This document shows, piece after piece, positions 33,077 through 34,686 of a stretch of DNA of 64,000 nucleotides (the stretch's first letter is position 1; the number at the start of each line of letters is the position of its first letter). Source of the DNA: Candidatus Gastranaerophilales bacterium (GTDB lineage: Bacteria; Cyanobacteriota; Vampirovibrionia; Gastranaerophilales; Gastranaerophilaceae). The stretch lies in contig CALUPW010000004.1 in NCBI GenBank assembly GCA_944322785.1, forward strand, positions 62,001 through 126,000, read 5' to 3'. The notes under the pieces were generated by a model that did no database searches, had not been told where the DNA came from, and worked only from the letters and a program-made list of their open reading frames with translations. A program made the translations under genes and the position numbers.

Positions 33077-33541
33077 ATGAGTGTAATAAGCGCAGTAAAA
33101 AATAATTACGGAAAATATCTTGCAAAAGCCGCCGGTGTTGCGGCAATAGGCTTGATTTTGCGTGATGCGCATACAATCGGCAAGCTTCAGGCCGATGTAA
33201 CATCAGAATCAAGAGATGCTAACGTCAGCATGGATTTGTTTGAAAATTCTCAAAAACTTGACACTCCTAGCCTCTGGAAGGGTGAAATGAAAGATAAAGT
33301 TTTTAAATATCATCTTGAAAATAATTTTCTTAATTTCTTTAACTCCGCAATCGGATACTTTTCAGGTTTGGGTTCAATGCTTGTGTCTAATGTAGTACCG
33401 CTGGGACTGGGTTTGACAGCACTTCTTGCTAAAGGTAAAAAACTGGCATGCGGAAGCGGAATTGCACTTGCAGCTTATGCTGGATTTACATTTATTAAAG
33501 ACGGTCTGGGAATAGGAACTAAAAAATATCTGCAAAAATAA
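33077..33541 (+). CDS. Small hypothetical membrane protein
   Basis: 154 residues with hydrophobic stretches at about 17-28, 92-117 and 124-140 (Gly/Ala-rich). Family not recognised. AAAGG lies about 9 nt before the ATG. Co-oriented with the Gln/Pro-rich protein, probably one operon. Its end is 2 nt from the convergent stop at 33544. Confidence 0.55.
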   Translation: MSVISAVKNNYGKYLAKAAGVAAIGLILRDAHTIGKLQADVTSESRDANVSMDLFENSQKLDTPSLWKGEMKDKVFKYHLENNFLNFFNSAIGYFSGLGSMLVSNVVPLGLGLTALLAKGKKLACGSGIALAAYAGFTFIKDGLGIGTKKYLQK

Positions 33542-33543
33542 AA

Positions 33544-33936
33544 TTATGAAACACTTACATGCGAAGGCATCAAACCTGCAAACAGGATACCGCAAATAAA
33601 TAATACAAGATATATTTTTAAAATTATCCCTACCCATTTTTTCTGCTGTTCCTGAAAATCTTGTATGCTTTCATAAACATTATCTTTATTATAATATGCC
33701 AGCTTATTTCCAATAAAACCCATATATATTGGAATTATCCACGAAATAATGACCAGTATTCTAATCAGTGTAACCGGCATTGGAATATTTCCAAGAGGCG
33801 TAAATGTGCACAAAAAAAATATAAAAGAAACATAGGCTGTCCAATGCTTGACTTTATTTCCGATTGCCCAAATCCATGTACCTAAACAGGCAGCCCAATT
33901 AAACTTTCTTAATTCTTTTTCCAAATCTTTATCCAT
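33544..33936 (-). CDS. Small membrane protein with NWxA...WIWAIGN motif
   Basis: 130 residues: FNWAACLGTWIWAIGNKVKH near the N-terminus, then about three hydrophobic helices and IYMGFIGNKLAYYNKDN before the last helix. This pattern is found in DUF2628/zinc-ribbon-associated small membrane proteins; the function is unknown. GGAGG 5 nt upstream of ATG 33936. Its promoter contains a C9 tract within the spacer, so its transcription may be phase-variable. Confidence 0.65.
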   Translation of the reverse strand: MDKDLEKELRKFNWAACLGTWIWAIGNKVKHWTAYVSFIFFLCTFTPLGNIPMPVTLIRILVIISWIIPIYMGFIGNKLAYYNKDNVYESIQDFQEQQKKWVGIILKIYLVLFICGILFAGLMPSHVSVS

Positions 33937-33973
33937 CTAAACCTCCAAAGCACTCTAAATCAATGATAGAAAC

Positions 33974-34005
33974 AATATACCACAGGGGGGGGGAGGGGCT
34001 GTCAA
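33974..34005 (-). promoter_or_regulatory. Promoter with C9 homopolymer inside its spacer
   Basis: On the minus strand, TTGACA (34000-34005) and TATATT (33974-33979) are 20 nt apart. The spacer carries CCCC and an uninterrupted C9 (33985-33993). Predicted TSS near 33967, 31 nt before the ATG at 33936. The spacer is 3 nt longer than optimum, so a tract change would retune it. Confidence 0.55.
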
Positions 34006-34014
34006 GTATTAATT

Positions 34015-34686
34015 TTATTTCAACAAATCCGGACGCTTTAATTTTGTTCTGAGAATTCGCTGCTGCTGACGGAATTCATTAATTTCTTTGTGATTACCGT
34101 TTAAAAGCACCTCAGGAACTTTAAACCCTCTGTATTCACGAGGTTTTGTATATTGCGGATATTCAAGAAGCCCGTCCGAAAAACTGTCATCCTGAGCACT
34201 TTCTATTTTGCCTAATGTTCCTTCAAGCTTTCGGCTGACAGCATCTATAAGACAAAGTGCCGGAAGTTCGCCGCCAGTCAAAACAAAATCTCCGATTGAA
34301 ATTTCTTTCGGTTTTATGATTTCCCGTATTCTTTCATCAAAACCTTCATAATGTCCGCAAAGACATATTATTTGCTCAAAGTCAGCGAGTTCTTTTACAA
34401 CTTTTTCACATAAAGGCTCCCCTTGCGGTGAAAGCATTACAGTAATTGAATTTTCTATCTTTTCAATACTTTCATACGCATCAACATAAGGCTGCGGCAT
34501 CAAAACCATTCCCGCACCGCCGCCATAAGGAGTATCATCAACTTTTCTGTGCTTATCCAGCGTAAAATCCCGTGGATTTATGGTATTTACCTTAATAATT
34601 CCGGACTCAACAGCTCTTTTCATAATACTAAACGCAAAATGCGACTCTATCATCTCGGGAAACAATGTCAACACATCAAATCTCAT
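34015..34686 (-). CDS. trmD: tRNA (guanine37-N1)-methyltransferase
   Basis: 223 residues, MRFDVLTLFPEMIESHF at the N-terminus; SPOUT knot with LCGHYEGFDERI and SIGDFVLTGGELPAL; C-terminal YTKPREYRGFKVPEVLLNG. It makes m1G37 in tRNAs reading CNN codons, preventing frameshifting. It overlaps rimM by 4 nt. Confidence 0.97.
   Translation of the reverse strand: MRFDVLTLFPEMIESHFAFSIMKRAVESGIIKVNTINPRDFTLDKHRKVDDTPYGGGAGMVLMPQPYVDAYESIEKIENSITVMLSPQGEPLCEKVVKELADFEQIICLCGHYEGFDERIREIIKPKEISIGDFVLTGGELPALCLIDAVSRKLEGTLGKIESAQDDSFSDGLLEYPQYTKPREYRGFKVPEVLLNGNHKEINEFRQQQRILRTKLKRPDLLK

Follow-up and report, generated by a model that had tools for sequence, protein, structure and literature searches.

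Phase variation through simple repeats is known mainly from pathogens. The promoter of Neisseria meningitidis opc undergoes poly-C phase variation, according to the passages in which the original work is cited (Sarkari 1994, as cited in PMC3960869, PMC3447861 and PMC2791445), and a tract of 11 rather than 12 C alters its expression, as stated in a passage of PMC3447861. The promoters of Neisseria porA and fetA also carry a homopolymer between the -10 and -35 elements (PMC2791445). In Bordetella, C runs of 7 to 19 are found in the promoters of the surface genes fim2, fim3 and fimX, and in fimX a single C changes the transcript 3.8-fold (PMC1891110).

Here we analyse a C run in a 64-kb stretch of Gastranaerophilales DNA, referred to as the window in its whole length. 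The site reads as a well-formed promoter of an already known kind, with a homopolymer in its spacer. By analogy, we lean somewhat towards an opc-type promoter that is tuned by its length and would drive the gene of a 130-aa membrane protein.

Promoter anatomy and genomic neighbourhood

On the minus strand, positions 34005 to 33974 read TTGACA-GCCCCTCCCCCCCCCTGTGG-TATATT with a 20-nt spacer (Table 1). This agrees exactly with the preliminary description, which had placed TTGACA and TATATT 20 nt apart with a C9 run between them (33974-34005); it had overlooked the extended -10 motif TGG and the nearness of the trmD stop codon. Judged by sequence, the homopolymer sits between the -35 and the -10, as in opc and porA, and a ribosome-binding site and a gene start follow immediately, again as in these systems. 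The 130-aa ORF starts with ATG 37 nt past the -10, and GGAGG lies in front of it. The C9 tract is interrupted, with an extra CCCC one T away (CCCCT-C9). A local promoter scan, whose scope did not extend to 20-nt spacers, returned promoter-like matches at the shuffled rate.

Table 1. Coordinates and layout of the features in the window, of further tracts in the same genome and of poly-C promoters in relatives.
Feature	Location	Strand	Details
-35 element TTGACA	34000..34005	-	6/6 consensus; sequence and pattern search
20-nt spacer GCCCCTCCCCCCCCCTGTGG	33980..33999	-	sequence
C9 homopolymer	33985..33993	-	G9 on the plus strand; homopolymer run search
Extended -10 motif (TGn), TGG	33980..33982	-	sequence and pattern with TGN
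-10 element TATATT	33974..33979	-	5/6 consensus; sequence
Ribosome-binding site GGAGG	33942..33946	-	sequence
Putative small membrane protein, 130 aa	33544..33936	-	hydrophobic segments; without Pfam family
trmD	34015..34686	-	upstream neighbour on same strand; PF01746, E 4.6e-63
Convergent 154-aa ORF	33077..33541	+	relative directly behind trmD in five congeners
C12 tract	1023-1034	minus-strand gene	in the coding leader (5' part) of one of ~39 pilin-like ORFs
Second promoter in genome	C6:88883		TTGACA-G-C12-ATGTGC-TATTAT, spacer 19 nt; precedes membrane-anchored 139-aa protein
Third C tract, C15	C1:320755		upstream of TGA-TATGAT and TM2 protein (PF05154); no -35 at normal distance
Poly-C promoter in relative	G255		TTGACA-C10-TATAAT, 15 nt; before secreted repeat protein
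Poly-C promoter in relative	G332		TTGACA..C10..GAAAAT, 19 nt; before TPS adhesin (PF05860)
Poly-C promoter in relative	G216		TTGACA-AT-C17-TGTTTGA-TATATT, 26 nt; before PMP-repeat adhesin (PF02415)
Poly-C promoter in relative	G117		TTGACC-run-TATAAT, 17 nt; before N-methyl pilin (PF07963)
Poly-C promoter in relative	G184		C7, 16 nt; before 62-aa protein
Three near-identical paralogous promoters in relative	G399		C10 (18 nt), C9 (17 nt), interrupted run (17 nt)

The genes rimM and trmD lie upstream on the same strand as the 130-aa gene. The -35 starts 10 nt past the trmD stop codon and no terminator was seen between the two; transcriptional read-through from rimM-trmD into the 130-aa gene is possible.

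The downstream gene had been described as coding for a small membrane protein, and as a putative assignment this is borne out by its 130 residues with hydrophobic segments and no Pfam family. Homologues, 25-41% identical, occur only in other genera; the protein has no match in 13 same-genus genomes and a search for the gene in named genomes found none. Two of the homologues have tract-free promoters, TTGACA-17-TATTAT and TTGACA-17-TAAAAT. In five of the 13 congeners, trmD is directly followed by a relative of the 154-aa gene. Since trmD adjoins this relative there, the ~470-bp segment of tract, promoter and 130-aa gene is a lineage-specific insert behind trmD. A perfect 11-bp inverted repeat (33536-33546 and 34010-34020) flanks the segment. 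We did not adopt it as a mobile end; by our own estimate, ~0.1 such repeats are expected by chance.

Homopolymeric tracts in the genome

The presence of two independent G/C tracts at regulatory positions in one window had been regarded as unusual for an AT-rich genome. Neither part of this claim survived. The genome (1.95 Mb) holds 45 C/G runs at least 8 long. In the family, the majority of the relatives sampled likewise contain several to many G/C tracts, and congeners each have 0 to 64 runs of at least 9. The window contains only two G/C runs of at least 7, C12 at 1023-1034 and C9 at 33985-33993 (the next longest is 6), and the former lies in a coding leader, not in a promoter.

About 39 of the 45 runs are G10-G15 stretches within the opening codons of pilin-like ORFs (for example L042, L044, L060 and L072). 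Most of these ORFs share a leader, MVKKQTMIEIQGGGG.. or METIDMTGLQGGGG.., and 36 of the ~39 have the prepilin motif [AG]FT[ML][AS]EVLI in some downstream frame. Only two of the runs (L060 and L072) keep the reading frame of the long ORF behind them, and the same out-of-frame state is kept by total length (CA+G12, C+G13, CAA+G11). Phase variation with a strong OFF bias, or programmed slippage, could account for the out-of-frame leaders. In the majority of the species sampled from the genus, similar poly-G leaders precede pilin-motif ORFs (L109-L121), with runs of 11 to 13 and a mixture of in-frame and out-of-frame states.

Six runs are of another kind, and two of these, the window site and C6:88883, are TTGACA promoters with a C run as spacer. 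Genome-wide, these two are the runs among the 45 that TTGACA closely precedes and TGnTATnnT closely follows. In this DNA, the joint chance of TTGACA 0-8 nt upstream and TGnTATnnT 0-22 nt downstream is 0.7-1.7e-4 per position, so that fewer than 0.01 of 45 tracts are expected to have the full layout. Two is far above this expectation, and a chance origin of the layout of TTGACA, C run and extended -10 is unlikely. For the C-tract genes at C6:88883 and C1:320755, relatives in the genus were found without a tract promoter.

These observations bear on a reading in which the promoter is weak or a relic. Most transcription of the 130-aa gene would then come from rimM-trmD read-through or start at the extended -10. 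In a lineage that readily forms G/C runs, the tract itself would be neutral or in decay. The 20-nt spacing and the interrupted tract agree with such a reading, as do the nearness of the trmD stop (10 nt upstream, no intervening terminator seen) and the many G/C runs that the lineage produces. However, a perfect TTGACA and an extended -10 have been retained at the two ends of the tract, and the same layout recurs at a second gene of the genome; we regard this reading as rather improbable.

Proposed length tuning of the spacer

Under the length-tuned reading that we prefer, a sigma-70-type promoter (TTGACA, 20-nt spacer, TGG-TATATT) would hold the poly-C tract inside its spacer. Slipped-strand mispairing would add or remove Cs and so shift the distance between the -35 and the -10, which would in turn change transcription of the 130-aa membrane-protein gene, as in opc. 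The 20-nt spacing, compared with the optimum of 17 nt, suggests that the assembled allele is probably a weak state, in which the extended -10 and read-through from trmD may sustain some activity. We infer that the promoter is used, that its present state is weak, that the tract is unstable and that its length affects expression.

Single-base steps of the tract would span spacers of 19 to 21 nt. To arrive at 17 nt, C9 would have to become C6. At such a length, three steps away, slippage should be infrequent and reversion slow, which makes a ready, reversible switch to the optimum questionable. The earlier proposal that a 3-nt shrinkage would give the optimal 17 thus stands for the spacing, which is preferred in the clade, but not for the route, which needs a C6 beyond the range of slippage. 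The site could equally be a rheostat that moves between weak states, or its tract may be degenerating; the CCCCT-C9 interruption should stabilise the tract. As a switch, the C12 promoter at C6:88883 is the more plausible candidate, because two Cs fewer (C10) would bring its spacer to 17 nt.

Poly-C spacer promoters in relatives

Across 383 genomes of the family, the extended -10 pattern was found at seven sites, compared with one in the reversed control. Further family sites came from a search for TTGACA near a C run, the intergenic ones being read together with their ORFs. The Gastranaerophilales poly-C promoters (Table 1) have runs of 7, 9, 10, 12 and 17 and spacers of 15 to 26 nt, and Pfam matches back the adhesin and pilin assignments of the genes behind those of the relatives. 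In 408 kb of family and order loci, promoters that combine exact TTGACA with a near-consensus -10 are most often spaced at 17 nt (18 cases, against one at 20), which is the optimum of the clade. The poly-C promoters of the relatives appear to bracket this optimum, as expected if their length drifts.

TTGACA near a C run, with no requirement for a -10, showed no excess in the family, as the reversed control exceeded the observed count. We therefore base our reading on the complete layout and on how spacer lengths are distributed. The reversed control is perhaps confounded, as ACAGTT-like letters presumably can recur around pilin-leader tracts. Several loci (L088, L089, L127, L147, L150 and L152-L157) were dropped because they lay inside genes or in antisense, or lacked a clear gene start. 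L125/L146 was left uncounted; the lexA-like gene downstream of it has a promoter-like site of its own.

Poly-C spacer promoters beyond the family

The pattern TTGACA-N0-5-C8+-N0-14-TATAAT, searched over 84,980 species, matched at least 117 stretches at 116 distinct sites, a sample biased toward exact consensus sites and few genera. Among the matches listed, the majority are from Clostridia and Mucispirillum MAGs, and the spacer is 15-17 nt long in 71 of the 116 sites (null fraction 0.20, p 4e-22). A second group of 27 of the 116 listed sites has 19-21 nt, and the window site, with its 20 nt, would fall into it. Of 101 of the matches listed, 81 have a gene start downstream, compared with 23 for the opposite direction. 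Lipobox-like N-termini occur among these matches five times as often as in control ORFs (31% and 6%).

It is conceivable, if unlikely, that the C run is instead a fixed element of constant length. Such an element would act through its sequence or DNA shape, by contact with a regulator or sigma factor or as a stiff spacer, and would not slip. We consider this the main rival to length tuning. All 13 of the 13 sampled Mucispirillum promoters of this layout have C9 and a 15-nt spacer, as would be expected of a fixed element. At the Mucispirillum loci (L216-L304), the layout reads TTGACA[TA]T-C9-[AG]TGATATAAT and precedes several genes of lipoproteins and secreted proteins. Among the matches listed, C9 is more frequent than C8 (62 and 32 sites), and four orthologue pairs at ~49% identity or more have kept their spacer length, one pair trading C8 for C9 at constant length; this retention, too, agrees with a fixed element. 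On the other hand, the spread of runs and spacers in Gastranaerophilales and the G399 paralogues that are one C apart speak against it. The fixed Mucispirillum layout means that a C run in a spacer is no proof of hypermutation; free hypermutation would predict neither this layout nor the orthologue pairs that keep their spacers.

Repression through structure is far less probable still. Here, a quadruplex on the G-rich template strand, which reads G9-A-G4, would block RNA polymerase, and the longer tracts found elsewhere (15 and 17) could fold in this way. However, G9AG4 and G12 contain fewer GGG runs than a canonical three-tetrad fold requires, and the spacing of ~15-17 nt accounts better for the broad pattern.

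Discussion

We propose, tentatively and with appreciable doubt, that poly-C-spacer promoters are a widespread and largely undescribed class in uncultured gut bacteria, slipping in some lineages and fixed at C9 in others, and that the window site is an instance of it. If so, the class would span Clostridia, Mucispirillum and Gastranaerophilales, with a preference for lipoproteins and surface adhesins. A fixed C9 would be part of the promoter code in some lineages, and a slipping C run would tune expression in others. Our literature search returned no description of such promoters in gut Clostridia or Mucispirillum, and nothing relevant on phase variation in Gastranaerophilales or on homopolymeric tracts in Melainabacteria.

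A non-photosynthetic gut cyanobacterial lineage thus appears to have both poly-C in promoter spacers and coding poly-G in many pilin-like genes. Poly-C spacer promoters as a general route by which gut commensals may vary their surface proteins become a testable idea. The variable runs of Gastranaerophilales, set against the fixed C9 of Mucispirillum, call for caution in reading a C run in a spacer as hypermutation.

Comparison with known systems

The promoters of gut Clostridia and Mucispirillum resemble the window site in the order of TTGACA, C run (C8-C12 there), -10 (TATAAT there) and gene start, the gene often being that of a lipoprotein. They differ in spacing, which is mostly 15-17 nt, with Mucispirillum fixed at C9, compared with 20 nt in the window. 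In Bordetella fim, the C stretch lies between the -10 and an activator site, whereas the window tract is flanked by a consensus -35.

Spacer tuning had been proposed on the model of porA. The anatomy of the site and the poly-C promoters of relatives in front of surface proteins lend the proposal partial support, with opc as the better model. In porA and fetA, the architecture of a homopolymer in the spacer is the same, and an effect on expression has been demonstrated there. The porA tract is poly-G. In opc, length variation and its effect on expression have been demonstrated, whereas both are proposals for the window site. The window site differs from opc in its perfect -35, extended -10, interrupted tract and 20-nt spacer; the opc product is an outer-membrane adhesin, and that of the window a small membrane protein with no role assigned. 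Because its tract is poly-C, opc is nevertheless a closer precedent than porA, and like the window site it carries this tract between the -35 and the -10, upstream of a membrane-protein gene.
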